Source: Wenzhouxiangella marina (GTDB lineage: Bacteria > Pseudomonadota > Gammaproteobacteria > Xanthomonadales > Wenzhouxiangellaceae). Taken from it: DNA of 64,000 nucleotides. The position numbers were made by a program, and so were the translations under genes. The stretch's first letter is position 1; the number at the start of each line of letters is the position of its first letter. Below, piece by piece: positions 66 to 62,935 of this stretch. The stretch lies in contig NZ_CP012154.1 of NCBI RefSeq assembly GCF_001187785.1, forward strand, positions 1,358,501-1,422,500, written 5' to 3'. Below the pieces are notes generated by a model. That model saw only the letters and a program-made list of their open reading frames with translations. It was not told the origin of the DNA and searched no databases.

Positions 66-413
66 ATTAACCCGGCAACCATTTAGATCGCATTCAGGGC
101 ATCAGGAATGGCGCGAATCAAGGCGTCGCTCGCCGGCAAGGGTCGTTCCCTTGGCAAGAGCGAGAACGCAGAGTCGGGCCATTCCTGGTGCCCCTAACTC
201 GTTGAATCCAAATGATAGGCCGCGCTGTGCCTGACGATGGACGGCGTTAGCGAAACTTGCTGTAGAACGACTACAGCGGCGTTCCAGCGCAGGCGAGAGC
301 GCAAGGGCGACTTGCCCATCGGGAATGAAGCCCTGTAGCGAAGCCGTTGCGCGTGCCTTGCCCTCGTCAGGCACAGCGCGGCTGAATGCGATCTAAATGG
401 TTGCCGGGTTAAT
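66..413. mobile_element. Miniature inverted-repeat element (MITE-like), two-lobed
   Basis: Perfect 32-bp inverted repeats lie at 66-97 and 382-413. Inside, lobe 1 has a 16-nt stem at 97-112 pairing with 178-193 (15 of 16 match). Lobe 2 has a perfect 18-bp stem at 220-237 pairing with 364-381. The outermost bases include TTAA at 67-70 and 409-412, which fits a palindromic 4-bp target duplication of the YTAR type known for IS5-group elements. There is no transposase. A 90-codon open frame inside (102-374, minus) has no recognisable product and is probably not a gene. The right end contains the TAA stop of the neighbouring minus-strand gene. The element is seen directly; descent from an IS is inferred. 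Confidence 0.8.
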
Positions 414-1545
414 TTCTCGCTACTTCGTTCAATTCGAAGCGGTCGCTGAAGACTTCGACGGGGTCTGCTCGATAGATGGCACTCGTCTCGTCGGTGAATA
501 CGGCCAGAAAGGCGATCGCGCCTTTGTCATTGAGCCCGCCTCGAACGAAGCCAAGCCCGCTGGACGGGCTGATGATCGTTTTCCCCTCGAGGGTATCACC
601 GGTTCCGACGATCTCCCTGATCGTCCCCTCTTGCCAGACATTGATCGTGCTTCGACCATCGTCCAGCGCCGCGGAGAAGGCGATAAGGCCGGCGTCGTTC
701 AGCGCTGGAGTGCCGAACTGGGCAATTGGTCCGGCGCCAGTGGCGATGAGCTGCGAAGACAGGCCGTCGAAGAGATAAAGCTCATTCCCCTCGAGGCCGC
801 GATTTCCGACATAGGCAATCTCACCCGAGTCGTTGAGTGAGATGCCGCCAATGCTGCTGAAGACCCCGCTGTTGTCTGCAATGGTTGAAGCCGAGGATCC
901 GTCAAAGAATCTGAGCGCACGAAGCCGGACGCCGTCGACAATTTCGTCGGCAACGGCCAGGTACGCGACCTGGCCACCTGAATTGATGTCCGCTGCCCCG
1001 AAGAATCCAAAGGGACCGGTTTCATCCTCGATCGCGGAAAACGCGCTGCCATCGTAGGTCATGATGGTCGAGCCGTTGGGGCCGATGTCGGCGAAGAACG
1101 CCACCGTGCCTTGATTGTTGATTGATGTGACGTTGCCGAAAGCGTCATAGGGTGAATTTGCCGCTGCGATGGTCGATATCGAACCCGCCGAGCCAAAAGC
1201 GACCGCGTCCGGTCCGGCATCGAGGATCAATCGGAATGACACCTGGCTGGATTCGTTGAGCGCTGGTTGAGCGAATGCTGTGAAGGGACCTGCGGTATCT
1301 GCGATTGTGGTCAAAGTGCTTCCATCGGAAATGACCACGGCTCGGTCCGTCCCGCGCTGTGTGGTAAAGGCCACTGAACCCATATCATTGAGCGACGGGG
1401 GTCCATAGATGCTGGTGGGCACTGGCGTATCCAGCGGCTCGAACGGCGTCACCCTGACGAAACGATAGTCGGCTGACTGCGCCAGGACTGCTGAGGCCAG
1501 TCCGAACGTTGAGATCAGCCCAAGCATGAGCAGGCGTGGCCGCAT
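409..1545 (-). CDS. Secreted NxxGxxAF-repeat protein with C-terminal DRFE motif
   Basis: 378 residues with a signal peptide at about 1-22 (cleavage near VLAQ-SA). The rest is tandem blades of about 50-60 residues carrying N-x-x-G-x-V-A-F/Y cores (LNDMGSVAF, INNQGTVAF, INSGGQVAY, LNDSGEIAY, LNDAGLIAF, LNDKGAIAF). This is the 'choice-of-anchor tandem repeat NxxGxxAF' family, probably an extracellular beta-propeller of unknown ligand. The tail VFSDRFELNEVARN carries the DRFE signature shared by many exported proteins here. A GAGG ribosome-binding site precedes the ATG. The TAA stop lies in the TTAA at the edge of the 66-413 element, so the insertion left the protein intact. Function unknown; export is confidently inferred. 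Confidence 0.85.
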   Translation of the reverse strand: MRPRLLMLGLISTFGLASAVLAQSADYRFVRVTPFEPLDTPVPTSIYGPPSLNDMGSVAFTTQRGTDRAVVISDGSTLTTIADTAGPFTAFAQPALNESSQVSFRLILDAGPDAVAFGSAGSISTIAAANSPYDAFGNVTSINNQGTVAFFADIGPNGSTIMTYDGSAFSAIEDETGPFGFFGAADINSGGQVAYLAVADEIVDGVRLRALRFFDGSSASTIADNSGVFSSIGGISLNDSGEIAYVGNRGLEGNELYLFDGLSSQLIATGAGPIAQFGTPALNDAGLIAFSAALDDGRSTINVWQEGTIREIVGTGDTLEGKTIISPSSGLGFVRGGLNDKGAIAFLAVFTDETSAIYRADPVEVFSDRFELNEVARN

Positions 1546-2113
1546 GGTTTCTACCTCTTCGTTATTCGAATGAGCCCATGTGGCTCAGGATGATATGCCG
1601 TGTTGCCAATGATTGATTCTCATAAAGACTTGAAGCGGCGATTCAGGCCTCTGAATGCACTATACCTCATGGTCGGCGATTCGAAATCACGGCAGTTCGT
1701 GTCCGCGGGCGCGAAGGGAAACCTGCTGCGTTTCAAGGCCAATCGAGCCATGAGTGGGGTTTGCGACAAGAGAGCCACGATGGATCCTGGCGGCAGAGAG
1801 TTGTTGTCGATGCATAGGTGATGGGATGGACGCCTCGACCGGAACCCCGGGAACTCGATGAGACCGTTCCACCGTCGCCGATGGGGGACGCGGCCTTCAA
1901 GCCACAGCCATGGGTCTCGTTGAACAGTCTCCCGGTGCTCAGCTGCTGGCAAGGCAAGCGCGTCACCCCACGACCAAGGTCGAAGCCATCGCGCCGGCAC
2001 GGGCGAGCGCGTAAAGCTATAATGGGGGGGTAACCGTTCGATGCGGCGTAGCGGCGCGCATCGGCACCCTAACCTGCTGAATTCATGCCCTTTTCGAGGA
2101 GCCCTGGAAACCG
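1546..2113. other. Intergenic region between divergent genes; acnB leader
   Basis: 568 bp with no convincing gene; the short frames here have no start signal and no family resemblance. The right part holds a perfect TATAAT at 2018-2023 followed by a run of seven G. It would serve as the -10 box for acnB with a leader of about 85 nt. No good -35 hexamer is visible. Confidence 0.5.
2018..2023 (+). promoter_or_regulatory. Putative -10 box of acnB
   Basis: TATAAT at 2018-2023 on the coding strand, 91 bp before the acnB ATG. The -35 region (CGGCAC at 1995-2000 with 17-bp spacing) is poor, so the promoter may need an activator. Only the -10 is well supported. Confidence 0.4.
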
Positions 2114-4906: not shown

Positions 4907-4943
4907 GCCTGCGATCTGACCTGTCGCGGCGCGTCCGCCACGC

Positions 4944-4980
4944 AAAAGGGGCACTCCTCGCGAGCGCCCCTTTTTGTTTC
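4944..4980 (+). terminator. Rho-independent terminator of acnB
   Basis: A 9-bp stem AAAAGGGGC (4944-4952) pairs with GCCCCTTTT (4966-4974), with a 13-nt loop that is itself partly palindromic (CTCGCGAG). A T-rich tail follows, 38 bp after the acnB stop. Confidence 0.9.
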
Positions 4981-5144: not shown

Positions 5145-6704
5145 ATGAACCAACTTCATTCACTCGGCAAGCGGGCTGCGGCCCTGGCCTTGCTCGCCGC
5201 AGTCTGGTCCGGAGCGGCTCTCGCCGGCGGGCCATCCTTCGATGCGGTCGAAGCCTATTCCTGGGGGAATGTGGGCGGCTCAACCGACAGCGTCATGATG
5301 AGTCCGATCGTCACCCAACTCGACGATGACAATACGGATGGCGTGGTCGACCGGAACGACGTGCCGGACATTGTCTTCATCACCTTCAACGGCAGTGACT
5401 ACAACAACAACACCGGCACCGCCGCGACCCTGCGCGCCGTGAGCGTCTCCAACGGCAAGCTCGAGCCGAAGTTAAGCGTCAGCCTGACCTCGTCGCCGGA
5501 CTGGCCCGCACGTCAGATCGCAGCCGGCAATATCGACGGGCTGCCGGGCAACGAGATTCTGACCGTGACCCGCGATGGAAGGATCCGGGCCTACACATCT
5601 GCCGGCGTGGAGCTCTGGCTGAGCAACCCGCTTGCCCCCCAACTGGTGGCGCCGGCCATCGCTGACCTCGATCAGGACGGTGACGTCGAAGTCATCACCC
5701 TTGGAGGGGTTCTCGATGGGGTCAACGGCTCGCTCGAGGCGCCCTTGACGATCACCGGCCCCAGGCAGGTGATGGCGGTCGATGTCGATGGTGACAACAG
5801 CCTGGAGGTGGTGACTCCGGGCGCGGCCTACGATGCGACGGGAAACCTCATCGTGGATAGCGGTGTCGCCGGATCGCATGGTGCCGTCGCCGATCTCGAC
5901 CTGGACGGCGTGCCCGAGATCATTGCCGTCGACGAACAGAGCCATACGATGACGATCTGGCGACTGGCCGACAACCCCGACAACTTCGAAATCATCCGTT
6001 CGGGCGTGGATCTCCATGTGGGCGTCGATCCGAACCCCTGCTGCATCGCCAATCCGAACTCCTTTGGCTGCCTGCGTGGCGGGGGCTCGCCTGTGGTCGC
6101 GGACTTCAACGGTGATGGTCTGCCCGATGTGGGCGTCTCTTCGGGGCCGGTGCTCGCGGTTTTCAGTGGCGCATTGCTGATGGACAGCCAGGTCGTCAAC
6201 GAAAACACGGCGCTGTGGTCGACGCCGATCCAGGATTGTTCCTCGGCACAGAGCGGGGCCGTCGCCTTCGACTTTCTCGGTAACGGGAGGGCGGAGCTGG
6301 TCCATGCCGACGAGACCGAATTCGCGGTGTTCGATGGATCCACCGGCTTCAAGGTTCTGGCTGCCTGCAACACGAATGGAACGCTGTGGGAAAGTCCGGT
6401 GATCGCTGATGTCGATGCCGACGGAAGCGCCGATATCGTGGTCCCGAGCAATAACTACTCTTCCTTGACCTGCGCAGGCCAGAAGAACACCGGTGTTCGA
6501 GTGTTCAGCAGCACCACCGGATCCTGGGCAGCCTCGCCGACGAGTTGGAATCAGCACTCCTTCCACATTACCAATATCGACGATGACGGCAGTGTCCCGG
6601 TGTCCGAGCGTCCTCACTGGCTTTTCTCCGCCACCAATGGATTCCGTTTCACGATGATGCCCGTCGACGCCTTGTTCTGGGACCGTTTCGAACCAGAGCC
6701 CTAG
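5145..6704 (+). CDS. Secreted FG-GAP/VCBS beta-propeller protein with DRFE tail
   Basis: 519 residues from the ATG at 5145, chosen because AGGGGAGGA lies just upstream and a signal peptide follows (MNQLHSLGKRAAALALLAAV...ALAG). A TATACT at 5101-5106 would make an upstream start untranscribed. The mature part carries FG-GAP-type calcium-binding loops (DDDNTDGVVDRNDVPD, DLDQDGDVEV, DVDGDNSLEV, DLDLDGVPEI, DFNGDGLPDV, DVDADGSADI), implying a beta-propeller. The C-terminus LFWDRFEPEP has the DRFE signature. No enzymatic motif seen; extracellular role unknown. Confidence 0.85.
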   Translation: MNQLHSLGKRAAALALLAAVWSGAALAGGPSFDAVEAYSWGNVGGSTDSVMMSPIVTQLDDDNTDGVVDRNDVPDIVFITFNGSDYNNNTGTAATLRAVSVSNGKLEPKLSVSLTSSPDWPARQIAAGNIDGLPGNEILTVTRDGRIRAYTSAGVELWLSNPLAPQLVAPAIADLDQDGDVEVITLGGVLDGVNGSLEAPLTITGPRQVMAVDVDGDNSLEVVTPGAAYDATGNLIVDSGVAGSHGAVADLDLDGVPEIIAVDEQSHTMTIWRLADNPDNFEIIRSGVDLHVGVDPNPCCIANPNSFGCLRGGGSPVVADFNGDGLPDVGVSSGPVLAVFSGALLMDSQVVNENTALWSTPIQDCSSAQSGAVAFDFLGNGRAELVHADETEFAVFDGSTGFKVLAACNTNGTLWESPVIADVDADGSADIVVPSNNYSSLTCAGQKNTGVRVFSSTTGSWAASPTSWNQHSFHITNIDDDGSVPVSERPHWLFSATNGFRFTMMPVDALFWDRFEPEP

Positions 6705-11757: not shown

Positions 11758-12909
11758 ATGCCGAGCGCAGCCTCCGATTCGACCGGTGCCGTAGCTGCGG
11801 CACTCGCCTTCGCCTTGCTCGCGTTGCTGGTCATTGGTCCGGTCGTTGCCGCACCGCCGACCTGTCCGACGCCTGCCCAGGGTTACGAGATCGCGGGTTG
11901 CTTCGTCGATGGGAACGGTGACGAGTATCCTGCCGGCGGGTCGGTGGACGTTTACGACCTCGCCTTCGGTCAGTCGCTGAGCGCGTCATTCCCGGCCGGC
12001 ATCTTCGTCACCGATGCCTTTCAGGTGGCCCCTCCGTCTTCGCCGCCCGCTTCCTGTGGATCCTGTGGACCGATCGACTTCTGCGTCGTGGTCGCCTTCG
12101 AAGCTTCGGCGGCGGGGGCGCCGATTCCGCAGTCCTTCTGTGCGCCGGGCGATCCGACCGTCAATCAGGGCGGATTCGACCTTCGGAGCCTGGCCGGTGA
12201 CGCCCCGATTCCCGTGATCATCCCCGCCTACACCGTCGGCGGCGAGGTCACCGGTCTGGAAGGGTCCGGTCTGGTCCTGACGAACAACGGCGTCGACGCG
12301 CTTCCGATCGCGATCGATGGTGATTTCACCTTTCCGACGCCGGTGAACGACGGCCTGGGCTACGACGTTGCCGTCGCCAGCCAGCCCACCGGCCCCAGCC
12401 AGGACTGCACCGTCACCAACGAGACCGGCACCATCGACGGCGCGGACGTGACCGACGTGAGCGTCGTCTGCGTCACGCGGACCGCCGATCTATCCGTAAG
12501 CAAGACCGATGGCACCAATTTCATCCCGCCCGGTGAACCCGTGGTCTACACGATCACGGTCGCGAACGCCGGGCCCCAGGACGTGGTCGGCGCCCGTGTG
12601 CTCGACGTGCTGCCGGCAACGCTGTCCAGCGCCTCATGGAGTTGCGTGGCCGATGCCGGCGCGAGTTGTCCTGTCTCGGGCAGCGGCGATATCGATGCCT
12701 TCGTCGACCTCGCGGCGGGCAGTGCGGCCGTGTTCACGCTGACGGCGACGACGGTGGCGGACCCCGATGCGGTGGTGATCAATACCGTCGAGCTCATCGA
12801 GCCGAATGACGTCATCGATCCGGATTCGTCGAACAACAGCGCGACCGACACCACCATCCTCGACCCCGTCATCTTCCAGGACCGTTTCGAGACCGCCAAT
12901 CCCCGGTAG
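11758..12909 (+). CDS. Secreted DUF11-domain protein with DRFE tail
   Basis: 383 residues, starting 3 bp after the tail-collar gene. The signal/hydrophobic segment spans about 10-32 (AAALAFALLALLVIGPVVAA). A cysteine-containing N-terminal region (about 35-150) is unrecognised. A short beta domain follows (VGGEVTGLEGSGLVLTNN...), then a DUF11 domain at about 240-365 (ADLSVSKTDGTNFIPPGEPVVYTITVANAGP). The C-terminus DPVIFQDRFETANPR has the DRFE signature. DUF11 domains are common in large surface proteins, so a surface location is likely. Last gene of the 10892-12909 operon. Confidence 0.85.
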   Translation: MPSAASDSTGAVAAALAFALLALLVIGPVVAAPPTCPTPAQGYEIAGCFVDGNGDEYPAGGSVDVYDLAFGQSLSASFPAGIFVTDAFQVAPPSSPPASCGSCGPIDFCVVVAFEASAAGAPIPQSFCAPGDPTVNQGGFDLRSLAGDAPIPVIIPAYTVGGEVTGLEGSGLVLTNNGVDALPIAIDGDFTFPTPVNDGLGYDVAVASQPTGPSQDCTVTNETGTIDGADVTDVSVVCVTRTADLSVSKTDGTNFIPPGEPVVYTITVANAGPQDVVGARVLDVLPATLSSASWSCVADAGASCPVSGSGDIDAFVDLAAGSAAVFTLTATTVADPDAVVINTVELIEPNDVIDPDSSNNSATDTTILDPVIFQDRFETANPR

Positions 12910-13540: not shown

Positions 13541-14065
13541 ATGTCTTCGTTTCGTTGCAGCACTGCGGCGGGTACCGCGCTTGTCCTGGTGGCCCTCCTG
13601 ATATCCCCGTCAACGCCGGCGACGCCTCCGGTGGATGCGGTGCCCTTCTACTGCGCCGCCACCGTGGAGCCTGGAAGCGAGGCACTGCTGGAATGTCGGC
13701 GCAGCGACACGCGCGAACTGATTCCGGTGGTTCCCCCGGGGCTGTTCCTGTTCATCACGGACGTGATGACGCAGCCCGCCTCCGAGGCGGTCGAGGGCGT
13801 CTTCACGGCGTCCTTCGGACGCGACCAGCAAGGCTCCGATTTCCCGGGCACGCCCAGCCTGGACCTGATCGGCCATCCGTTCCAGATGCTCAATTTCACC
13901 ACGCCTTACGTGATCCTCGCCGAAGGAGAGGCCCTTGCGGTGGCGAACTCCGCGCAGTCGGATTTCGCCATCGAAGTGCGCGCTTCGGGGTATCTTTCAG
14001 GGACCTTCGTCGAGCCTCCCCCGGCGGTGATTTTCCTGGATCGATTCGAGGAAACCCAGGACTAG
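13541..14065 (+). CDS. Small secreted protein, paralogue B (with DRFE tail)
   Basis: 174 residues, 12 bp downstream of its paralogue. Signal peptide at about 1-27 (ALVLVALLISPSTPA). The mature domain aligns with paralogue A from VDAVPFYC to VRASGYL. After that shared end it alone continues with a proline-containing linker and IFLDRFEETQD. No strong ribosome-binding site is visible, so it may depend on coupling to paralogue A. Function unknown. It is useful as an internal comparison for what the DRFE tail adds. Confidence 0.8.
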   Translation: MSSFRCSTAAGTALVLVALLISPSTPATPPVDAVPFYCAATVEPGSEALLECRRSDTRELIPVVPPGLFLFITDVMTQPASEAVEGVFTASFGRDQQGSDFPGTPSLDLIGHPFQMLNFTTPYVILAEGEALAVANSAQSDFAIEVRASGYLSGTFVEPPPAVIFLDRFEETQD

Positions 14066-14759: not shown

Positions 14760-17700
14760 CTACTCGAAGCGGTCAGCAAACAGGCCGAACTCCCGGAGCA
14801 GGCGCAGGTCGAGGTCATCGATCTGGACTGGCTGGCTGCCCGCCATGACACGCAGTTCGATCCGCACGGTCAGGGTGCCTGGGGGCGTCGTGGTGGTCCC
14901 GGAGAGGCGCTCCCAGTTTACCGTTGTCGAGCCCGTAGCGACCCGCGCTTCCTCCAGGGCTGCACCTGAGCAGGCGTGTTGAGCGTAGGAGCGAACCCAG
15001 AGCTCCAGTCCGGCCGTATCGCCGCTTCGATGGGATGCGACGGCGCGGACGTTCTGCCGCCCGTCGATCGCGGTGCACTGGCTCACGTTCACGGTTCGAC
15101 CCGCCGAGACCTCCAGCGAGCCCGAGTCGGGGCTGGCGAAAACGTCGGACTCGGAGAACGCGACTGCAGTCTCATCGGAGGTGGTCCAGCCCAGGATGCT
15201 GCTGTTGAAATCGACGTTGGCGGCCTGGCCGTCTTCTTCGAGATCCCCGAGGACGGCGTCGATTCCGGTCGTCACCTGGCCGGCGTTCAGGGCCACATCG
15301 CTGGCGCCGTCCAGATCGGGCGAGTCGTCATGGAACTCGATGTCCGGGTTCTGGATGCCGGCCAGGCTGCTGCCGCGGAACTGGACGCGATAGGTGCCGG
15401 CGGGTACGCCATCGATCCGGTAGTTGCCGTCGTCAAGTTGCGTACGGCCGCTGACGAAGGTCCAGTCTCCGGAGCCCGGGTGCTGGCGCAGCAGGCTGAT
15501 CGAGGTGATTGGATAGAAGCCACCCTCGACGCGCGTCACGGTGCCTTCGATCGAGGCACCGACCGCCATTTCCACGTCCACGCCGGCGGTCTCGCTACCG
15601 ACCGTGACCGCGACGGGATCGGCGTCCTGCCGAAGGATGCGGTCATCGAAGTATTCGGTGGCGTAGGTCCGGTCGGGGTCGCTGAATCGGAGCCGATAGT
15701 CGCCGCTCAGCAGGCGACCGCCGATCGCATACTCTCCGGCAGCATCCGTGGTGCCGAAGCAGGGCAGGCGGTCGAAGGCACCGCCCTCTGCGGGTTCGCA
15801 GCTGACTCGGATACCCTCCAGCGGCTGCCCACCTGCAGCGGACACCCGACCCGAGATCAATCCGCCGCCGATCGTGGACTGGGCCCCGTCAAGGACCGCG
15901 TCGATACCGCTGATCGGGTCATCGCCGACCAGAATGGGGGTTGCGCGTTCAAAGTCGGCAACGTCGAGATAGAACTCGCCGGGCAGGGTCCCGCCGCTGT
16001 CCTCGAACTCGATGAAGTAGACGCCTGAATTCAACGGGGTGAACTCGTACTGCCCGGCCGCGTCGGTCAGGGTCAGAGCTTCGGGCGCGTCCTCGTCGTA
16101 CAGGCGAACGGTAATACCCGCCGCCGGCTGGCCAGCCCCATCGGTCACCGTGCCCGAGATCGAGCCGCCGGGAATCGCGCCGAGCACGGCATCGATCATG
16201 CCTGTGTCCGATCCGGCCGTCACGGTGATGTCCGTGGCCGATGCCAGGTCGGGAACGTCATCGTAGAACTCGGAGTCGTTGTTGCCAGTCCAGCCGCCGC
16301 CGGTGAAGGCCACCCGGTAGGTGCCCGTCGGCAGGCGCGTGATCCGATATTCCGTGTCGTCGAATTCGGTCGTCGAGCGCTCGAACCGGTATTCGCCATC
16401 GACCAGGCGGAAAGCACTGACCGTCAGCCAGTCGAAGGCGTCGCCGAAGGCATTGGACACCACGCCGGAAATCGATCCAGCCTCCGGCAGGGAGGCGTCG
16501 ATTCCCGCGGTGACGCCCGGCGCCGTCACGGTGACCGGCGTGGCGGTTTCCAGGCTGTCGGCGCCGAGATGGTAGCGGGTCAGGTAGGCCCCGCCCTGAT
16601 CCGAAAACTGGACCAGGTACTCGCCGGAGGTCAGGTCGCGCAATCGATAGCTGCCGTCGGACGACGTTTCCGTGCGGCCGACCAGCTCGCAGACCGGCGT
16701 TTCATTCGAGAAATCGCAGGGTGCTTCGTAGGCGAGAACGAGCACTCCTTCGAGCGCTTGATCCTGCTCATCGGTCACGATCCCTGAGATGCTGCCGGGC
16801 GGATTCGCCGCTGGATCAAGGGCGATATCGATGCCGTCGACCGCACCGGCCACGGGAACGCGTTGCGCGCCGGACGGGCTGGCGGCGCCTGCGTACCAGA
16901 CGTTGCCGAGTGCACCCGTCGGGTCGTAGAAACGAAGGAAGTATTCCTCGGGCCAGAGTTCGGGCACGGTGTAGTCGCCGTTCACGTCGGTCACGGCAAT
17001 CTGATCCGAGAGGAAGGACAGGGATCGGTCGAAGGCCAGCACCTCGATGCCGGCAGCCGGATTGCCCTGCGCATCGGCCACGGTGCCTGAGATGCTGCCG
17101 GTCGAGTACGAGCCAAGGTGCTCATCGATACCCGTCAGGGCATCGCCGGTCGCAACGGTCAGGTCGGACGCGGATTCGATCGACGTTGCGTTCGGGAAGA
17201 ATTCGCTTTCCAGTTGTCCGTCCGGCGCCAGGAAGGAACCGCCGTCGAACCTCAGACGATAGGTCCCCGCCGGCACGTCCAGCAGGTAATCGTAGTCATC
17301 GTCCTGGTAGAAGGCCTGGACGCTGGACACTTCGACCCATTGGCCGTTGTTCCAGTTCAGCGCCGTCACCCTGGCGATGTCCAGCTCCTCGCCGTAGCGG
17401 TCGCGCAGCCGTCCGCGGATCGTTCCGCCCGGCCCGAGACCCATCACGGCGTCGATCCCGGTGGAAGCCTCGCCGACCTGAACCGCAACCGGGACGGCGC
17501 TCTGCGCATCCGGTGCATCATCGTAGTACTCGAGATAGCTGCGATTGTTGCTCTGCTGGCCAGTGAAACGAACCAGATAGTCGCCGGTCGGCAGGCCGCC
17601 GATGTCGTAGTCCGAACCAGTGGGTTGCTGCACGAACAAGACCTGGCCGGGGTCCCAGGTCCCGAAGACCGCGATCAGTGGATTGAACAGGGGGCGGCCA

Positions 17701-36719: not shown

Positions 36720-38108
36720 TCAGTCGGACTGAAAACGGTCACTGAACAGCTGGTCCTGGTCGGCGCTCCACTCGTAGGCGCCGCAATCGACGGTCGTGCC
36801 GACGACCCGTGCTTCGAAGTCGGCATCGATCAGCCCGATGCCGCCGACGGGTGCATTGATGCAGCTGTCGATTGCCGAGGAGCCCGTGGAAAGCCGGTAA
36901 TTGCCGTTGGCGAAATCGATCACTCCGGGATCGATGGCGACGATATTGCCGGCGCTCAGGTTGTTGCCGTTGCCGTCGTCACCGAACACGAATTGCGCTA
37001 CACCGTTGCCGAAAGCCACCGCGTTGTATTGAGTTTGGGTGTTGTTGCTGCCGTCTTCGTGGCGGATGCCGTCGACGTCGTTGTTGACCGCCGTGGTATT
37101 GATCGCATATACCTGAGCCGTTGATACGGCGTCGATACCGAGCCCCGACACATTGTTTCCATCCACCACGGCGATGCTGCGAAGCGTGACGTTGCCATCC
37201 GCTGCGTCGACCTCGAGCTGTGACGCGCCCGTCGCGCTGCCATCGCGGCGATTGCCGCGGAACTCCGCACCCTCGATGGTCACGAAGGGACCGGACGCGC
37301 TGGGGTTGTTGATCACGCGCATCCCGGCGCCTTCGCTGACAGCGTCTGACACGACCTGATTGTTTCGTACCGACAAGCGCGTCAACGTCGCCGATGGATC
37401 ACCGCCGCCGCCCACGTCCACGGCGAGACCGCCTCCTCTTGCGACGACGGAACCGAAAGCGGAATTGTTGATGAAGGTCAGGCCGTTACCAGTAAAGCTT
37501 CCGTCGTCGGCCGTCACCAGCAGACCGCCGCCGGATACGGTCCCCCCGGACACCAGGTTCTGGGCGAACAGGCATTGACCCACTTCAGCGGTCGAATTGC
37601 CCAGCTGCTGGATTCTCACACCACCGCCTCCACCGGTGCCCGTTGACGCGTTGGCCGCGTTGCGGAGCACGCGACATTGAGCCAGCTCGAAGCTGGCATT
37701 GCCATCGACGACGATGTCGGCGCCGGCACCGCCGACATTGGCAGAACCGTCGGCAAGGGTCAGGTTGCGTACCAGCACCTGGCCGGCGTTGATGGTCAGG
37801 GAAAGGACCCGCTGGCTCTGAGACCCCGTCAGCTCGGTCGCGCTGGGGTCATCGACGCCGCTACTGAAGCTGGAATTCCAGCCTCCGATGATCTCCAGAA
37901 AGAAGTTCTCGTTCAGGGTGGCCGTCGCAGAGGTCTGGAGTAGTCCGGCCTGAATCCGGATTTCATCATCCTCGCCGTTGTTCTGCGCCACATTCAGCGC
38001 TGCCTGAAGGCTCGGATACGTGCCGTTCGGACCCACCGTCAGGACCTCCGCCGAGACCGATGCGCCGGCGCCCATCGCCAGCAAAAGAGTGCAGATTCTG
38101 AAGTTCAT
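36720..38108 (-). CDS. Secreted right-handed beta-helix protein (choice-of-anchor Q type) with DRFQ tail
   Basis: 462 residues from ATG 38108 (signal peptide MNFRICTLLLAMGAGASVSA). In-frame TTG/GTG codons upstream make the start slightly uncertain. Repeated beta-helix rungs run from about 60 to 370. The final domain (YRLSTGSSAIDSC...IDADFEARVVG...VDCGAYEW) is the 'choice-of-anchor Q' domain. After a short acidic linker the protein ends LFSDRFQSD, the DRF[E/Q] signature. Probably surface-exposed, possibly polysaccharide-binding; no catalytic residues are evident. Confidence 0.88.
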   Translation of the reverse strand: MNFRICTLLLAMGAGASVSAEVLTVGPNGTYPSLQAALNVAQNNGEDDEIRIQAGLLQTSATATLNENFFLEIIGGWNSSFSSGVDDPSATELTGSQSQRVLSLTINAGQVLVRNLTLADGSANVGGAGADIVVDGNASFELAQCRVLRNAANASTGTGGGGGVRIQQLGNSTAEVGQCLFAQNLVSGGTVSGGGLLVTADDGSFTGNGLTFINNSAFGSVVARGGGLAVDVGGGGDPSATLTRLSVRNNQVVSDAVSEGAGMRVINNPSASGPFVTIEGAEFRGNRRDGSATGASQLEVDAADGNVTLRSIAVVDGNNVSGLGIDAVSTAQVYAINTTAVNNDVDGIRHEDGSNNTQTQYNAVAFGNGVAQFVFGDDGNGNNLSAGNIVAIDPGVIDFANGNYRLSTGSSAIDSCINAPVGGIGLIDADFEARVVGTTVDCGAYEWSADQDQLFSDRFQSD

Positions 38109-38250
38109 TTCCTGAAGACCCACTGACAAGCCGCGCCGCTAATGTACTGGCATCGAACTCGAGCGTCCACCGCCTGTGCCTCGCGGATAAAAAAGATCAC
38201 GCGTAATGAGGCACCGAAACGAGGGTCAGGCCGAGACGAGGGCAGCCACA

Positions 38251-40333: not shown

Positions 40334-43300
40334 ATGCTGAAGGCAATGTTCGCCCGCGTTGGACGCGGCCTCCACGGGCGCTTGAATGGGTGGTCCCCTT
40401 CCCACGGGCGCAGGGTTTTCATTCCTGGCTTCGCGCTCCTGTGTGTCTGTGTCACAGCGCCTGCGCAGGTCTGGGCCCGTTTGGATCCTGCGCCTCTCCC
40501 CTCGATTCAGGACATCCCAGCCCACGATGCGCTTCGGACGGGCGAATCGCAGTCGAAAGCGGCGTCAGGCGCTGCGCAGATCATCGACGAGGCCTCGTCG
40601 GCGAATCGATCGGCAATCGAGCGTATGAACGCCACGGCTCGCCGCGCCGCGGCCGCTTCGACGATGCCGGCCTGGTACGCTGCTGCCGGCGGTGCGGCAA
40701 CGATCACGGTCAACACGCTCGCTGGTGATGACGACGGGGTCTGCGGGACCAACCCGGTCGACCCGGTTCAGGACTGCTCGGTGCTGGAGGCCGTGACCCT
40801 CGCCAACAGCGGTGCAGGTGCCGACGTGATCGCCTTCAGCGTCTCGGGAACGATCCCGCTCAGCGCCGCGCTCGTGCTGCTGGAAACGGTCCATCTCGAC
40901 GGTACGACCGCGCCCGGTGGCGCTGGATCGGTCTTTCTCGATGGGCAGGACCTGGTCCAGAACGTCGTGACCGTCTCCGGCGGGGTCGGCTCGGTCATCG
41001 AAGGGCTGACGATCGGGCAGTCGGCGAGGTCGGGGATTCTGATCGCTTCGCCAGCCGCGAATGTCTCCGTCCTGGGCAACTTCATCGGGACGAATGCGGC
41101 CGGGGACGACCTCGGCAACGACACGACGACCTTGGGCAGCGCGGGCGTGCGGATCGAGGGCGCCAGCGGCACCGTGATCGGGAGTATGTCCGCGAACGAG
41201 GCCAACGTCATCGGCTTTGGCCGCAGTGGGATCACCAATACGGCGGACACTTCGGACACGCTGATCGTCGGCAACTTCATCGGGACCAATGCGGCAGGGG
41301 CCGATCTTGGTAACACGCTTTCCGGTCTTTTTATGACGGGCTCGACTGCCATCGTGGGCGGGTCTGCGCCTGGCGCGGCCAATGTCATCGGCTTCAACGG
41401 AAGTTCAGGCATCGCATTTTCGGGGCCGAGTGCCACGGGGAACGTCGTGGTCGGCAACTTCGTTGGCACGAATGCATCGGGGGCCAACCTCGGCAATGGG
41501 ACCAATGGCATTGCGCTCGTCGATGCGTCGAACAATACGGTCGGTGGCACGGCGCCGGGCGAGGGCAATACCGTTGGATTCAGCTTCGGTGATGGGATCA
41601 TCATTGCGCAATTCGGCGCCGCGGCGACGGGCAACCTCGTGCAGGGCAATTTCGTGGGGACCGATGCCACGGGGACGAACCTGGGCAATGGCGCGAGTGG
41701 CGTCGTCATCCAGGACGCCTCGGGCAATACGATCGGTGGGAGCCTCCCCGGCGCGGGCAATGTCATCGGAGCCAATGCCGGCAGCGGGGTGTTCATCGGG
41801 GGCTTCAGCCAGGTCACCACGGGCAACGTGATCTCGGGGAACTACATCGGTACGAACGCGGCCGGCGCGGCCCTGGGCAATGGCAGCGACGGAATCTTCA
41901 TCCAGAACGCCTCGGACACGATCGTCGGCGGGAGCGGATCCGAGGCAGGAAACACGATTGGGTTCAACGCGAGCCATGGGATCCGGATCGGGGCCTTCGA
42001 TGGTCAGACAGCGTCGGGCAATCTCGTCCAGGGCAATCTTGTGGGAACCAGCGAAGGCGCTGCCAATCTCGGCAACTTGGCCGCTGGCGTGTTCATCCAG
42101 AATGCCTCAGGGAACACCGTGGGCGGCACCGCGCCTGGTGAGGGGAACACGATCGGCTTCAACGCAAGCCACGGCATCTGGATCGCGTCCCAGGACGGCC
42201 AAGCGACGGCGGGCAATCTGGTTCAGGGAAACTTCGTCGGGACGAATGAAACTGGCGCCGATCTTGGCAACGGCGCCATCGGTATTCTCAACCGGGACGC
42301 ATCGGATAACCTGATCGGTGGGACCATGCCGGGCGCAGGCAATGTGGTCGGCTTCAACAGCTCGGGAATCGTCGTCAGCGGTCTGGCTGCCACTGGGATC
42401 ACGGTGCAGGGCAACTTCGTCGGGACCGATGCGGCGGGAGCCGATCTTGGCAACGACGGCTCGGGCATTTCCATCGAGAACGCCTCGAGCAGTTTGATTG
42501 GCGGGACCGTGGCCAGCGCAGGCAACGTGGTCGGCTTCAATCAGGATGGAATCGCCTTCATCGGCCAGACGGCCACCGGGAATACCGCCCAGGGCAACTT
42601 CGTCGGGACCAATGCAACCGGCGGCAATCTCGGAAATGCGGCCAGCGGCATTGTCATCGTGAATGCCTCGACCAATACGGTCGGTGGCACCGCGCCCGGC
42701 GCAGGCAACGTCGTGGGCTTCGGTTCCATCGGCGTCGCCATCGCCCGAACGGCTTCGTCGACGACGAACAACACGGTTCAGGGTAATTACATCGGCACCA
42801 ACTCAGCGGGGGCCGAGCTTGGTAATGCCAGCTACGGCATTCTCGTTCAGGATGCGTCGGACAACTTTGTCGGTGGGGCAGCGCCCGGCGCGGGCAATAT
42901 CCTGGGCTTCAGTGCTTACGGTATCGTGGTGGTCTCATTCGGTCCGCCGGCGACGGGCAACGCGATTGCAGGCAACTTCGTGGGAACGAATTCGAGCGGG
43001 GCGAACCTGGGCCATATGAACGATGGCATCTACCTTCAGGACGCCACCGACAACCTTGTCGGCGGGACCGCACCCGGCGCAGGCAATACGATTGCCTTCA
43101 GTGGCGGCAACGGTGTTTTGGCCGAGACTGCCGGTACCACGGGCAATGCCCTGATCGGAAATTTCATCGGAACCAACGCCACTGGCGACGATCTGGGCAA
43201 CGCAGGTGATGGCATTCGCCTCCGTGGCGGTTCCTCGGGCAACATCGTGGGCGGGGCCGCAGCGGGTGAAGGCAACACGATCGGCTTCAATGTATTCGGC

Positions 43301-44407
43301 GTCACCCTCGAGGATGCAGGAACCACGGGCAACATACTCCTGGGTAACTTCATCGGCACCAACGCCGCCAATGATCAGAACCTGGGCAATGGCTTCCACG
43401 GGATTCTTGTTCGCGGCGGCGCTTCAGACAACGTCATCGGCGCAGCAGGGGCGGGCAACACCATCGCTTTCAGTACCGCTGATGGCGTGTTCATTCAGGG
43501 TAAGGGGACGACGGGCAACGCGCTGCTAGGAAACTTCATCGGCACTGGCACCCAGGGCCAGAATCTGGGCAACGGGCGCTTCGGTGTCGTGGTCACGACC
43601 GGTGCTGCCGACAACGCCATCGGTGCGCCGGGGGCTGGCAATACCATTGGCTTCAGCGGCGTCGACGGCGTGCTCTTCCAGCTTCCGGGCACGACGGGCA
43701 ATGTGCTCGAGGGCAATTTCATCGGGACCGATGCCGCGGGCCAGAATCTCGGTAACACCCGCCATGGCGTCCTGGCGACGGCTGGCGCTTCGGGCAATAC
43801 CCTTGGCGGGGTGGAGGCCGGCACGAGCAATACGATCCGCTTCCATACCGGCGTGGGTGTGCTCGTGTCCGACTCGACCACCCAGAGCAATGCCATCCTT
43901 GGCAATGCGATCTTCGACAACGACGCGCTGGGGATCGATCTGTCCGGCGTGATCGACGTCGGTGACGGTGTGACGGCCAACGATGGCTGCGGCGATTCGG
44001 ATGCGGGGCCCAACGGCGTCCAGAACTTTCCGACCCTCCTTTCGGCGCGAGCGGGTGGCAGCGTCACGAGCATTGACTTCGACCTCGACACGAGCGCTGG
44101 AGACTACCGTGTCGAGTTCTTCTCGGTACTCGCTGGCGATCCCTCCGGTCATGGAGAGGGACGCAGCTTCCTGGGGGCCGAGCAGGTCACCGTGTCCGCG
44201 AGCTGCGACGAGGCTTTCCAGGTCGAAGTCCCGCTGGCGGTGCCGGACGGCGCCTTGATCACCGCCACGGCCACGCGCCTGGATGCAGTCGAGGCGAGTG
44301 GCTTCGGAGGCACGAGCGAGTTCTCGGCGGTGCTGGCCGTCGAGCTCGTTGACGGACTCTTCGAGGATCGTTTCGAGTCGAACGCAGTGGCGTCAATGAA
44401 AGAATGA
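40334..44407 (+). CDS. Very large secreted beta-helix repeat protein with DRFE tail
   Basis: 1357 residues. Long signal peptide at about 1-48 (FALLCVCVTAPAQVWA). A CSLREA-like start (ITVNTLAGDDDGVCG...DCSVLEAVTLANSGAGADVI) precedes about 15 tandem units of 55-60 residues built on N-x-V-Q-G-N-F-V/I-G-T-N/D, then L-G-N, then I/V-G-G-T-x-P-G-x-G-N-x-I-G-F. These units stack as a right-handed beta-helix. A final beta-sandwich (about 1255-1345) ends LFEDRFESNAVASMKE. The repeats are also near-repeats in DNA, so copy number may vary. Probably a surface fibre or adhesin-like protein. Confidence 0.88.
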   Translation: MLKAMFARVGRGLHGRLNGWSPSHGRRVFIPGFALLCVCVTAPAQVWARLDPAPLPSIQDIPAHDALRTGESQSKAASGAAQIIDEASSANRSAIERMNATARRAAAASTMPAWYAAAGGAATITVNTLAGDDDGVCGTNPVDPVQDCSVLEAVTLANSGAGADVIAFSVSGTIPLSAALVLLETVHLDGTTAPGGAGSVFLDGQDLVQNVVTVSGGVGSVIEGLTIGQSARSGILIASPAANVSVLGNFIGTNAAGDDLGNDTTTLGSAGVRIEGASGTVIGSMSANEANVIGFGRSGITNTADTSDTLIVGNFIGTNAAGADLGNTLSGLFMTGSTAIVGGSAPGAANVIGFNGSSGIAFSGPSATGNVVVGNFVGTNASGANLGNGTNGIALVDASNNTVGGTAPGEGNTVGFSFGDGIIIAQFGAAATGNLVQGNFVGTDATGTNLGNGASGVVIQDASGNTIGGSLPGAGNVIGANAGSGVFIGGFSQVTTGNVISGNYIGTNAAGAALGNGSDGIFIQNASDTIVGGSGSEAGNTIGFNASHGIRIGAFDGQTASGNLVQGNLVGTSEGAANLGNLAAGVFIQNASGNTVGGTAPGEGNTIGFNASHGIWIASQDGQATAGNLVQGNFVGTNETGADLGNGAIGILNRDASDNLIGGTMPGAGNVVGFNSSGIVVSGLAATGITVQGNFVGTDAAGADLGNDGSGISIENASSSLIGGTVASAGNVVGFNQDGIAFIGQTATGNTAQGNFVGTNATGGNLGNAASGIVIVNASTNTVGGTAPGAGNVVGFGSIGVAIARTASSTTNNTVQGNYIGTNSAGAELGNASYGILVQDASDNFVGGAAPGAGNILGFSAYGIVVVSFGPPATGNAIAGNFVGTNSSGANLGHMNDGIYLQDATDNLVGGTAPGAGNTIAFSGGNGVLAETAGTTGNALIGNFIGTNATGDDLGNAGDGIRLRGGSSGNIVGGAAAGEGNTIGFNVFGVTLEDAGTTGNILLGNFIGTNAANDQNLGNGFHGILVRGGASDNVIGAAGAGNTIAFSTADGVFIQGKGTTGNALLGNFIGTGTQGQNLGNGRFGVVVTTGAADNAIGAPGAGNTIGFSGVDGVLFQLPGTTGNVLEGNFIGTDAAGQNLGNTRHGVLATAGASGNTLGGVEAGTSNTIRFHTGVGVLVSDSTTQSNAILGNAIFDNDALGIDLSGVIDVGDGVTANDGCGDSDAGPNGVQNFPTLLSARAGGSVTSIDFDLDTSAGDYRVEFFSVLAGDPSGHGEGRSFLGAEQVTVSASCDEAFQVEVPLAVPDGALITATATRLDAVEASGFGGTSEFSAVLAVELVDGLFEDRFESNAVASMKE

Positions 44408-56266: not shown

Positions 56267-56483
56267 CGGTGCAAGGTGGTGAACGCTCGAATCAGAGTGT
56301 AGCCGGCACGCGGCAGGCATCGGGTCGAGGCGCGGGAACGCAAGGAGTAACGGGGGCTTCCTCGGGCGAGCATTCGAGGGCTCGGGTATTTGGTGTACGA
56401 TTTTTCGAGCACAGCATCGTCTATGGTGCTTGTTGGGTTTTTCGCCGGCGTGCGTTGATCAGCGCTTTCAGGAGGATTCGAAC

Positions 56484-57017
56484 ATGTTTTCATCACGAAT
56501 AGGGGTAACGGGTTTCTTGCTCGGAGGACTGAGCTTTCTCGTGGGGTTTGGCGTTCTGGTGGCGCTTTCGCCGCTTGCGTTTGCCGAGCAGGTGGATGCA
56601 CCCGAAGGGATGTGGACGAGCGAATCGACGCGAGGCTTCGACCCGATCGTCAGATTGCTGGATGGAACGACGAAGACGGTTCAGATCGTTGATTTCCAGG
56701 CCGCACCAAGCGCCCTCGTTCCCCTGGGGGCGGAGGACGAGATGTATCTGAGAAAGATCTATATCCAGAATGGCAGCTTCAGTGACCTGAGTTTCAATAC
56801 CGGCGGCGTCGGAATCAACCCGGGCGGGGATATCTGGCACTACTTCTACCTGAACAGCTATGAGCGCCAGGAACACACCTTCGACCCGCCGATCCGTATC
56901 GGCGCGGGAACGATCATCCAGACCAACCTGTCCACGGGCTCGGGGGCGGCCCTGCAGATCACCTTGCTCGGGAGCACCGACCCGACCATCTTCTTCGACC
57001 GATTCCAGCAGGACTAG
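56484..57017 (+). CDS. Small secreted protein with DRFQ tail
   Basis: 177 residues from ATG 56484, with AGGAGGA upstream. Signal peptide/hydrophobic leader at about 1-34 (FLLGGLSFLVGFGVLVALSPLAFA). The mature part is a single probable beta-sandwich (LRKIYIQNGSFSDLSFNTGGVGINPGGDIWHYFYLNS...FDPPIRIGAGTIIQTNLSTGSGAALQITLLGS). Its outline resembles the 13067/13541 pair, but similarity is too weak to claim homology. C-terminus DPTIFFDRFQQD carries the signature. Confidence 0.82.
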   Translation: MFSSRIGVTGFLLGGLSFLVGFGVLVALSPLAFAEQVDAPEGMWTSESTRGFDPIVRLLDGTTKTVQIVDFQAAPSALVPLGAEDEMYLRKIYIQNGSFSDLSFNTGGVGINPGGDIWHYFYLNSYERQEHTFDPPIRIGAGTIIQTNLSTGSGAALQITLLGSTDPTIFFDRFQQD

Positions 57018-57110: not shown

Positions 57111-58031
57111 CTATTCCGCTTCGAAGCGGTCGCGGAACAGGGCGGCTCCCGGGAAGATGCTTTCCGCCAGCATCCGGAAAAAGACAGGGTAGTCGTCGGC
57201 CTGGCACGAGGGGAAGCGCAGACCTCCGGTGAGGACGCTGAGCGATTGGTGGCCGGTCCCGGGATCGACGCCCACGGGGCACAGCAGGGTGGACACGGCC
57301 GATGAAGGTGGCCAGGGCGCGGTCGACGGGCTATTCGGCCCCATGCCGATGAGGCTGTGCACGATGTAGTTGCGTGCCACCGAGGTGCCGAAGTCGGCGG
57401 GAGACAGGGCCAGCAGGTCGGCGTCGAAGGACGTCGCAGCGGCGCCGCCGCTGACGACGTTGTCCGCGTCATTGTAGCTGTCGCAGATCACTCCGTCGTC
57501 ACTGACGACCAGAATCACGCGATACGCGTCGGGCTGCAGCCAGGCCTGCCAGCCGGCGGGCGCCAGCCCGAATTCGTCCGGGACGCTGCCGCCATAGGTA
57601 TCCCTGAGAAGGCACCAGGCATTGTGCGAGCCCACTTCGACGCTGTACTGACGGTACAGCGCCGTGTTGCCCGGCTGTGGGGGAGGAGTTGCGCAGCCTC
57701 CCGAGGGAATGCTGCTCAAAGGCGCTTCGATGCAGACCGACTCGCTGGGCAGGTCACCGTGTCGCGCCACCATGATCACCTGAATGCCGACGTCCGCTGC
57801 GAGCAGCGGCCCGACCAGGTGGTCGTAGAGTCCGTTCTGGAGACTCTCGATTTCATCGGTCATCGAGGCGGAATTGTCGACGACGATAATCAGATCCACC
57901 GTCGGAGGCACGCCAGTGGAGGAACCGCGTTCCTGAATGCTCGAAGCCGGGGCCGCCGAGATCGCCTGGCCGGCCGCTAAGCTGCAGATCATCAGGGCGA
58001 TCCAGGCCCATTCCATTCCGTAGCGTCGCAT
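57111..58031 (-). CDS. Secreted von Willebrand factor A-domain protein with DRFE tail
   Basis: 306 residues from ATG 58031 (CAGGAG upstream). Signal peptide ends near ISA. VWA domain at about 40-260 with MIDAS motif D-N-S-A-S (DLIIVVDNSASMTDEIESLQ), a later VILVVSDDGVI strand and a disulfide-prone cysteine set. VWA domains bind protein ligands through a divalent cation. The C-terminus GAALFRDRFEAE bears the signature. Probably a surface adhesion or scaffold protein; converges on 56484-57017. Confidence 0.88.
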   Translation of the reverse strand: MRRYGMEWAWIALMICSLAAGQAISAAPASSIQERGSSTGVPPTVDLIIVVDNSASMTDEIESLQNGLYDHLVGPLLAADVGIQVIMVARHGDLPSESVCIEAPLSSIPSGGCATPPPQPGNTALYRQYSVEVGSHNAWCLLRDTYGGSVPDEFGLAPAGWQAWLQPDAYRVILVVSDDGVICDSYNDADNVVSGGAAATSFDADLLALSPADFGTSVARNYIVHSLIGMGPNSPSTAPWPPSSAVSTLLCPVGVDPGTGHQSLSVLTGGLRFPSCQADDYPVFFRMLAESIFPGAALFRDRFEAE

Positions 58032-58227
58032 TCTCGACTCCTGACCGGCCATGTAAAGCAAGGGACTGAAGTATAAGTCTCGACCCTGCGGGCTTCAAAC
58101 CAGCGGTCTGCCGCGCGCCCTTGCTGATCGACGGGCATGCCGGGTGACCCTGGTGGATGGGTGTCCGGCATGTCGATTGGCATGTCGATTACACTGGTTC
58201 ATTCACCGGATTCTTCAGAGGCCTGCC

Positions 58228-60297: not shown

Positions 60298-60571
60298 GGA
60301 GCCTCTGAATAATCCTGCTCGGGCGCGACAGGTCTTTGCGGGAGTCTCCGGCTTGGCTTGGGTGAGCGCGGTTTGGTCATTCCAAATAAGCTGGCCCAAA
60401 CGAGGCGGAGGCCCCGCAAAGGCCTGTCCCTAAAGGGTTTCGCCGGAAAGGCCGCATCTCGCGCGTCGCGCCACTCGGCCGTAGCGACGGCTACTGTCAC
60501 TCGCGTCGCGCCGCACGATCTGCGGCTTTTCCGACTGAAACGCGATCCGAGCAGGATTATTCAGAGGCTCC
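60298..60571. mobile_element. Second miniature inverted-repeat element, CTAG-flanked, two-lobed
   Basis: Perfect 25-bp inverted repeats (GGAGCCTCTGAATAATCC...) at 60298-60322 and 60547-60571 are flanked by CTAG on both sides (60294-60297, 60572-60575), consistent with a YTAR-type 4-bp duplication of IS5-group elements. Inside are two hairpin lobes: 60327-60342 pairing with 60413-60428 (15 of 16) and about 60437-60456 pairing with 60521-60541 (imperfect). No transposase. The left CTAG contains the TAG stop of the S9 peptidase gene. Sequence differs from the 66-413 element but layout is the same. Confidence 0.85.
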
Positions 60572-60696
60572 CTAGAAGTAGTCCGGTCTTCGGATCATTC
60601 CCGGACCGGCCCATGGGCATCGAGCCCATGGGTCGGACCAGGCGTCCTGGCAGATCGCTCCCAGCGGCAGTCGAGCCTGGCGTCGCCAGCCAGCGC

Positions 60697-62052: not shown

Positions 62053-62266
62053 GTTCGCTCTTGATCTTGCTTCTGGGGTATCCATGGTCTCAGAGCATTC
62101 CTGGGTCCACCAGGGTCGAAGGTCATGTCGGATTCCGGATCCATCGATCTGCGGAGACGGCTTTCTGTGCATCCATGCGGCCAAGGCGTGGCCGAATCAG
62201 TCGCTGGAAATCAGGGGTTTACGGGCCTATACTCGGTCGGCAGGGGTTCGACAGGAGGAGGCTTTT

Positions 62267-62935
62267 ATGAGGAATTTGATGGTCAGCTCGCTGGGCGCGT
62301 TCGCCCTTGCCGCGCTGTCGTCGCTGGCGGTTGGCCAGACGGTAAGCTTCCCTGGCGCTGGTGTCGGGCCGATCCCTGATCGTGGCGCGGCCGGCTGCGG
62401 TCCACCGGCGGGCCTTTCCCTCAACGTGGTTTTCGCTGCCTCGGGATTGGTCGCCTCCGGCAATGAGCTTGAGGGCATCGAGGTCGATCTGGACATGACC
62501 CACACCTGGGTCGGTGACGTGACGGCCGAGCTCTATGCCCCGGACGGCGTGACCTCGCATGTTCTTTTCGGGCGCGTCGGTACGACCACGGCGACTGGCT
62601 GCGGGGACTCGTCGAACCTCGATGGGGTCTATACCTTCAGCACCAGCAGCTTCGGTGATCTATGGGCCGCGGCGACAAGTGTCGGCGGCGCGGACATCGT
62701 CCCCGATGGCCTGTTCGGAACCAGCGAGCCGGGTGGTTCGGAAGCTGGCGGCAGCTTTACCGACATGCTGGCCAGCTTTGCCAGCGTGGGGGATCTGAAT
62801 GGTAACTGGATCCTCAGTGTCACCGACCAGGGTGGCGGTGATACGGGTGAGGTGCGGGCAGCGACGCTGCGATTCATTCAACCGCCGTCCGATCTGCTCT
62901 TCGACGACAGCTTCGAAGTCCTGCCGCCGCCCTGA
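62267..62935 (+). CDS. Secreted proprotein-convertase P-domain protein with DSFE-type tail
   Basis: 222 residues from ATG 62267 (AGGAGG six bases upstream; TATACT at 62228 supports this start). Signal peptide MRNLMVSSLGAFALAALSSLAVGQ. A P/Homo-B domain occupies about 45-205 (LEGIEVDLDMTHTWVGDVTAELYAPDG...SFASVGDLNGNWILSVTDQGGGDTGEVRAATLRF). No protease domain is attached. The C-terminus LLFDDSFEVLPPP is a variant of the signature with Ser in place of Arg. The next gene starts 1 bp after its stop. Confidence 0.87.
   Translation: MRNLMVSSLGAFALAALSSLAVGQTVSFPGAGVGPIPDRGAAGCGPPAGLSLNVVFAASGLVASGNELEGIEVDLDMTHTWVGDVTAELYAPDGVTSHVLFGRVGTTTATGCGDSSNLDGVYTFSTSSFGDLWAAATSVGGADIVPDGLFGTSEPGGSEAGGSFTDMLASFASVGDLNGNWILSVTDQGGGDTGEVRAATLRFIQPPSDLLFDDSFEVLPPP

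Follow-up and report, generated by a model that had tools for sequence, protein, structure and literature searches.

Introduction

How the type II secretion system (T2SS) recognises its clients is an old open question. In Vibrio cholerae, the clients that carry a GlyGly-CTERM use the T2SS and reach the cell surface (PMC13393428, PMC6219818). MYXO-CTERM proteins bear a phylum-wide tag, found on dozens of surface proteins that the T2SS carries, and TraA deprived of this tag is released into the medium (PMC11980579). Secretion of VesB requires the PDZ domain of EpsC, with the information residing in the Ig fold (PMC12369372), and PelI and Pel3 are recruited through flexible loops (PMC7949064); as these last two papers state, no common linear T2SS signal is known. 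Here, we describe a short C-terminal tag with the core [LIV]-F-x-D-R-F-[EQ], which recurs on exported proteins of Wenzhouxiangella marina and may be an address label for export or cell-surface placement. The tag was proposed in a first-pass annotation, made from the sequence alone, of a 64,000-nucleotide stretch (contig NZ_CP012154.1, positions 1,358,501–1,422,500), which we refer to as the window.

A C-terminal tag on exported proteins

Scanning all six frames of the window for tag motifs returned the ten tags that the first-pass annotation had listed, i.e., nine [LIV]FxDRF[EQ] and one LFDDSFE, all in frame and with a stop codon 0–9 residues downstream (Table 1). A broader six-frame regular expression added a single match, FYLNSYE (56844), which lies inside the tagged open reading frame (ORF) 56430–57017. 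The genome, a single contig of 3,675,202 bases, was searched with a DNA pattern for FxD[RS]F[EQ], and the reversed pattern served as a control. The search gave 97 matches, 51 forward and 46 reverse, and the control gave 2. For the 87 matches that lie outside the window, the surrounding sequence was retrieved. All 97 matches together gave 98 ORF records, which include at least one duplicate (a 54-aa piece in L083 repeats L084). We retained ORFs longer than 120 aa in which a start was found and no more than 16 residues separated the motif from the stop. This excluded short ORFs, copies inside a protein, ORFs leaving the retrieved stretch, and L071 (551 aa, without a called start). In the 79 of 98 records kept, the motif lies within the last 7–21 residues. 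Signal peptides, which the annotation had assigned to the tagged proteins, were present in 76 of these 79 under a permissive hydrophobicity rule, whereas that of the tenth window protein is ambiguous. A lipobox-like stretch was found in two of the 79.

The frequency of the tag was estimated in the window and 20 evenly spaced 20-kb stretches, comprising 337 predicted genes. The tag stood within the last 24 residues of 20 of them, with 0.05 expected from shuffled tails; the first-pass observation is confirmed. A crude localisation rule placed the tag on 15 of 96 exported proteins, on 4 of 164 cytoplasmic and 1 of 55 membrane proteins, and on 0 of 22 lipoproteins. We take the five non-exported cases to be errors of start site or locus edge, given that these ORFs pass the signal-peptide test. 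The annotation's estimate that about half of the exported proteins are tagged fits the window (10 of 21, three starts corrected) but not the other stretches, where roughly one exported protein in eight is tagged (10 of 80, two starts corrected).

The fuller consensus reads D-x-[ILV]-F-x-[DN]-[RGS]-F-[EQ]-x(0–14). Two of its positions lie outside the DNA search pattern and are nonetheless enriched: Asp two residues upstream of the motif (49 of 79; background 0.081) and Ile, Leu or Val at motif position 1 (74 of 79; background 0.216). The conserved residues are encoded by varying synonymous codons across the 79 proteins, and motif position 3 is unconstrained. After removal of the tag, BLAST at E 1e-4 grouped the 79 proteins in 45 clusters, of which the largest have 21 and 13 members, which agrees with the earlier remark that unrelated proteins carry the tag. 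The number of clusters, the enriched residues and the synonymous variation together show that selection acts on the peptide, and does so in many proteins without common ancestry. A repeated DNA element or a gene-fusion hitch-hiker, appending the same functionless codons, would account for a tag in many unrelated genes and for two tandem copies in one protein. It is nevertheless extremely improbable given the synonymous differences at conserved residues, the free third position, and the confinement of most copies to the C-termini of exported proteins. There is thus good support for a tag at the protein level, carried by unrelated exported proteins other than lipoproteins.

The tails after the motif are variable and frequently end in proline. 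The tandem copies form a double tag at the C-terminus of L018 (ILQDRFE...IFRDRFE). Two similar exported paralogues, L048 and L049 (~1,939–1,946 kb), extend 87 residues beyond the tag, and in a 147-aa frame of L068 (reverse strand) the tag PIFCDRFE immediately follows the signal peptide.

Families of the tagged proteins

Among the ten window proteins, six gave a weighty Pfam or NCBIfam match (NxxGxxAF/DUF7453, FG-GAP, DUF11, carboxypeptidase-regulatory, choice_anch_Q slightly below the cut-off, and P-proprotein), one a weak CSLREA match, and three none. The VWA fold that had been suggested for one of them found no support in either database. The predicted structure of the 36720 protein has a beta-rich body (mean pLDDT 62.6; shallow alignment of 13 rows), and its final 72 residues, tag included, have pLDDT below 50, which is consistent with a flexible tail but may merely reflect the shallow alignment.

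The 79 tagged proteins were scanned against NCBIfam over their last 620 aa at E ≤ 0.01, with some matches below the curated cut-offs. The best 25 of the 56 families matched include choice_anch_Q (14), the DUF11 repeat (5), CSLREA (4), choice_anch_D (3), choice_anch_J (3), NxxGxxAF (3), and an ExeM/NucH nuclease (1). Pfam added HYDIN-type Ig, beta-helix, carboxypeptidase-regulatory, FG-GAP, and reprolysin domains. The “choice-of-anchor” families owe their name to their co-occurrence with differing C-terminal anchors; in two of our proteins, the choice_anch_J domain stops a few residues upstream of the tag. An M36-protease identity of two tagged proteins was dropped, as the matches corresponded to the shared choice_anch_J domain.

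No Pfam or NCBIfam model for the tag was found in the ten window proteins, the 79 tagged proteins (last 620 residues), or 36 tails, and none of the 36 tails matched a sorting-signal model of either database at E up to 10. We found no published description of the tag in the open-access collection searched, which leaves out most subscription journals. The absence of a membrane helix or basic end of the CTERM kind, as the annotation had described, was confirmed in the tails of the 79 proteins. Secretion by a type I or type IX route, or an exosortase or rhombosortase system, comes to mind since C-terminal signals are the rule in such systems. It is very unlikely here, given the 36 tails without a sorting-signal match and the lack of a helix or basic end in the tails read; moreover, the tagged proteins carry Sec signal peptides, whereas substrates of type I systems do not.

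One exported multiheme-cytochrome-like protein of the same genome (L198:16317–18032, reverse strand, ~661,317–663,032; NF040886, below cut-off) has a classical CTERM-like end, made up of a hydrophobic stretch and GLGRRATR. Its gene lies near the gspG–N cluster described below.

Table 1. Tagged proteins of the window and positions of their tags
Feature	Position	Strand	Evidence
NxxGxxAF-repeat protein, exported, choice-of-anchor type	409..1545	-	NCBIfam TIGR05002, E 1.6e-28
Tag VFSDRFE, stop after 7 residues	433..453	-	
FG-GAP protein, exported; ORF from 4995, predicted start 5145	5145..6704	+	
Tag LFWDRFE, stop after 3 residues	6672..6692	+	
DUF11 protein, exported	11758..12909	+	
Tag IFQDRFE, stop after 5 residues	12871..12891	+	
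Exported protein without family match	13541..14065	+	Pfam, NCBIfam scans
Tag IFLDRFE, stop after 4 residues	14030..14050	+	
Carboxypeptidase-regulatory/SdrD_B repeat protein, exported, 1311 aa	14760..18695	-	
Tag LFADRFE, extreme C-terminus	14763..14783	-	
Exported protein, choice_anch_Q match slightly below cut-off	36720..38129	-	E 5.4e-05
Tag LFSDRFQ, stop after 2 residues	36729..36749	-	
Exported protein, 1357 aa, weak CSLREA match	40334..44407	+	E 0.019
Tag LFEDRFE, stop after 9 residues	44357..44377	+	
Exported protein without family match; ORF from 56430	56484..57017	+	
Tag IFFDRFQ, stop after 2 residues	56988..57008	+	
Exported protein without family match	57111..58061	-	
Tag LFRDRFE, stop after 2 residues	57120..57140	-	
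P-proprotein domain protein; ORF from 61964, first-pass start 62267; signal peptide ambiguous	62267..62935	+	
Variant tag LFDDSFE, stop after 5 residues	62897..62917	+	

Taxonomic range

Relatives were searched for a broader motif, Fx[DN]-x-F-E, first in 121 and then in 358 genomes of the order Lysobacterales. A genome was called tag-rich when tag matches exceeded reversed-pattern matches by at least 15; counts are given below as tag versus reversed matches. The tag was enriched in families f1, f3–f7, f9 and f11 (working labels), weakly in the single f10 genome, and in part of f12. In f2, two of the 108 genomes were enriched (G091, 87 vs 1; G507, 104 vs 1), and a further one, G558, stood barely at the threshold, with no convincing tag among six loci read. 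Named examples are Dokdonella fugitiva (two assemblies, 41 vs 4 and 60 vs 5), Dokdonella BIN16 (64 vs 4), Aquimonas voraii (74 vs 3), a Chiayiivirga bin (55 vs 0), a Rudaea bin (47 vs 4), a Marinicella bin (61 vs 16), and two Wenzhouxiangella isolates (30 vs 0 and 53 vs 0). The Arg in the fifth position, part of the motif as first proposed, dominates in W. marina; among the matches listed for relatives, Gly is commonest there and is preceded by Asp or Asn.

The position of the matches was checked at 45 loci of five genomes. A C-terminal position was found for 6 of 7 rows in G507, 7 of 8 in G421, and 3 of 10 in G107; in G063, the tag was C-terminal in five distinct proteins with signal-peptide-like starts (17 rows, including repeats and very short ORFs). 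Among genomes of the class outside the order, 6 of 271 (counted manually) reached the excess of 15 in match counts, namely G367 (48 vs 24), G250 (20 vs 2), G210 (26 vs 9), G362 (24 vs 8), G257 (18 vs 3) and G204 (17 vs 2). The tag is spread through the order and used in much of Lysobacterales.

Two type II secretion systems in the order

GspD (TIGR02517) matched in 120 of the 121 genomes and exceeded the cut-off in 115; GspD in general was discarded as a correlate of the tag because such a distribution is uninformative. The only genome without a match, G019 (f9, 4.7 Mb, 100% complete), has few tags (19 vs 7), and most f9 genomes have both. Reading of the loci revealed two T2SSs in the order. 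T2SS-B is encoded by an xps-like operon, at ~572–583 kb of the W. marina genome (locus L138). T2SS-A is split between gspC-D-E-F at ~2,263.9–2,269.4 kb, adjoining rhlB, trxA and rho (recognised by eye), and gspG-H-I-J-K-L-M-N at ~654.7–659.9 kb. GspC-A, GspD-A and GspF-A were confirmed by Pfam and GspG-A by TIGR01710; the remaining T2SS-A genes were named from their order, their length, and homology across loci. At the C-D-E locus of some genomes, no gspF was seen. GspC-A contains a T2SSC domain and a PDZ domain (Pfam), and GspD-A carries an N0 domain.

GspD-A and GspD-B were cleanly separated by BLAST score. The general GspD model splits the GspD-A of W. marina into pieces; therefore, an alignment of twelve GspD-A proteins (A2) was built and used as the query to score the presence of T2SS-A. 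Some f2 genomes, e.g., G061, G501 and G519, have an intermediate secretin (E ~1e-107 to 1e-149 to the GspD-A model) and no tags. These secretins are presumably Xcs-like.

Co-distribution of the tag and T2SS-A

The first-pass annotation had suggested mapping the range of the tag and looking for genes that follow it; the tag is spread through the order, and T2SS-A co-occurs with it. In the set of 121 genomes, 66 of the 70 with T2SS-A were tag-rich, compared to 6 of the 51 without it, where G118 was counted as positive from a contig-edge fragment. In the set of 358, the corresponding figures are 105 of 123 and 20 of 235. Here, contig-edge fragments (G448, G424, G399, G497, G463) and weaker full-length matches (G427, G447, G500, G545) were counted as positive, intermediate secretins (mostly f2, E ~1e-69 to 1e-149; also G438, G483, G579, G586) as negative, and genomes without a match were listed in part, the unlisted ones being taken as negative. 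Within families (totals counted manually from tables), tag-rich genomes with and without T2SS-A amount to 2 of 3 vs 1 of 105 in f2, 15 of 18 vs 2 of 87 in f12, and 27 of 29 vs 2 of 4 in f9. G051, which shares the genus code of the W. marina genome, has T2SS-A and 37 tags vs 0 reversed. The presence of a T2SS as such is no explanation for the tag, because GspD is above the cut-off in nearly all of the 121 genomes and 26 of the 49 genomes in a B-type secretin tree lack T2SS-A. Completeness was preset to a default of 95 for many of the first 121 genomes, and the “complete” subset was left unused.

Several observations weigh against a role of T2SS-A in the export of tagged proteins. In f8, 2 of 6 genomes with T2SS-A were tag-rich, and so were 9 of 33 without detected T2SS-A; one of the latter family, G063 (97% complete, without detected GspD-A), encodes the five distinct, clearly tagged proteins mentioned above. 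The 20 tag-rich genomes lacking T2SS-A comprise these nine f8 genomes, six in f1, f4 and f11 (73–90% complete), two in f9 (96 and 81%), two in f12, and one in f2. Conversely, 18 of 123 genomes with T2SS-A were not tag-rich, some of them small or incomplete. Among those with T2SS-A and without tag richness are Rehaibacterium terrae (3 vs 1) and a Rhodanobacter bin (6 vs 4), and no enrichment was seen in G527, G545, G500 (f12) and G605 (f2), which are 99–100% complete and have a GspD-A-like secretin; the secretion systems of these four were possibly acquired horizontally. Outside the order, 9 of 11 named genomes with a related secretin were not tag-rich, and the two above the threshold, a Woeseiaceae bin (22 vs 5) and a Desulfobulbaceae bin (25 vs 8), are known from match counts only. 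From f8, the T2SS-A genomes without tag richness and the genomes outside the order, T2SS-A appears to be neither sufficient nor strictly necessary.

The independence of the comparison is poor, as the genomes are related and the independent changes few. In the 49-genome B-type secretin tree, the T2SS-A label changes five times and the tag label nine times. In four supported independent pairs that differ in T2SS-A, the tag differed in the same direction in 2.4 on average (1–3) and in the opposite one in 0.1; the sign test on these pairs gave a median p of 0.5, and four pairs cannot reach significance. The PDZ domain of GspC was dropped as a discriminator, since GspC-A has PDZ-type ends in both tagged and untagged genomes. 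Visual inspection of the T2SS-A loci read revealed no gene for a dedicated receptor.

Possible roles of the tag

The safest statement is that of a C-terminal sorting tag at the level of the order. The more specific reading with the most support, which we put forward tentatively, is a C-terminal sorting tag of Sec-exported, often beta-rich proteins that would leave through T2SS-A and perhaps be retained at the surface. Of the sorting, secretion or cleavage function that had been proposed initially, sorting or secretion is favoured because the tag co-distributes with T2SS-A and because the MYXO-CTERM and GlyGly-CTERM provide T2SS precedents; nothing speaks for cleavage in particular.

A possible, if rather doubtful, alternative is a surface-retention or envelope-binding motif that has an outer-membrane protein, lipopolysaccharide or S-layer as its receptor and works with any export system, T2SS-A having merely been lost in the same lineages. 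The f8 genomes that retain tags without detected T2SS-A agree with this, as do the many tagged proteins that are adhesin-like or of the choice-of-anchor type. The proteinase activity of Wenzhouxiangella AB-CW3 is cell-bound and not in the supernatant, for which its authors guessed at a T2SS together with outer-membrane anchoring (PMC7691419); this fits the alternative as well as the T2SS-A reading. On the other hand, T2SS-A-negative genomes of f2 and f12 are nearly devoid of tag richness, even though those sampled have a B-type secretin. Moreover, we found no receptor candidate, though no systematic search was made.

Short and C-terminal, with a variable tail that often ends in proline and with low confidence in one structure model, the motif could also be a processing or quality-control site, at which the tag is clipped or shields the C-terminus from periplasmic tail-specific proteases. 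Such a role is improbable, in that the conservation would seem to exceed the needs of a protease-resistant end, a few copies are internal or just behind the signal peptide, and the loss in most of f2 and f12 would be left unexplained.

If tagged proteins do leave through T2SS-A, they would be exported by Sec, fold, and then cross the outer membrane through that system. The tail might be read as a linear motif by T2SS-A itself, through the T2SSC or PDZ domain of GspC-A or the N0 domain of GspD-A; alternatively, the reader might be a surface receptor that keeps the tagged protein on the cell. That the tag is a linear recruitment signal read directly by T2SS-A, e.g., by the PDZ domain or HR of GspC or by N0 of GspD, we regard as unlikely. 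If true, however, it would be the first short shared motif doing what is thought to need structural signals. If the tag is an anchor instead, it would represent a sorting signal at the C-terminus that has neither membrane helix nor lipid. An order whose genomes differ in which of two T2SSs is present, and which shares a tag, makes recognition testable. Either way, the tag would be of use in annotating the surface proteins of Wenzhouxiangella, Dokdonella, Aquimonas, Marinicella, and their relatives.

Comparison with known sorting and secretion systems

The Sec/Tat signal peptide of T2SS substrates is present in nearly all tagged proteins under the permissive rule given above. GspC/GspD recognise the recruiting elements of PelI and Pel3 (loops) and VesB (Ig fold), which are exposed and either flexible or structural (PMC7949064, PMC12369372); these elements are structural and protein-specific, whereas the present tag is a linear motif on dozens of proteins. 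A C-terminal domain of the type IX secretion system (T9SS) was not encountered, as TIGR04183 (Por_Secre_tail type) matched none of the 36 tails. In the window, this model matched one of the ten proteins, below the cut-off and internally (18.3 vs 23 bits, residues 882–903 of 1311).

Choice-of-anchor domain families occur with PEP-CTERM-like tags, and in this the PEP-CTERM/exosortase system resembles ours, where such families also carry the tag. Nevertheless, the PEP motif, helix and basic end of the PEP-CTERM are lacking, and neither these signals nor a model match were found in the window proteins, the 79 tagged proteins, or the 36 tails. Like the present tag, the GlyGly-CTERM of the rhombosortase system (VesB) is a C-terminal tag on several exported proteins per genome. 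Its Gly/Ser motif, hydrophobic helix, basic end and cleavage by a rhomboid protease have no counterpart in the present tag; this anatomy was seen in none of the 79 tails, and NCBIfam gave no match in the 36 at E up to 10. The MYXO-CTERM/myxosortase system of Myxococcus has an invariant Cys, a helix, an Arg-rich end and predicted lipidation, which the present tag does not share; the combination of Cys, helix and Arg-rich end was found neither in the tails read nor in the NCBIfam scan of 36. On the T2SS-A reading, the tag would do the job of the GlyGly-CTERM or MYXO-CTERM without a membrane helix or lipid. Compared with the GlyGly-, MYXO- and PEP-CTERM, it has the same location in the protein, possibly the same machine, and a different anatomy.

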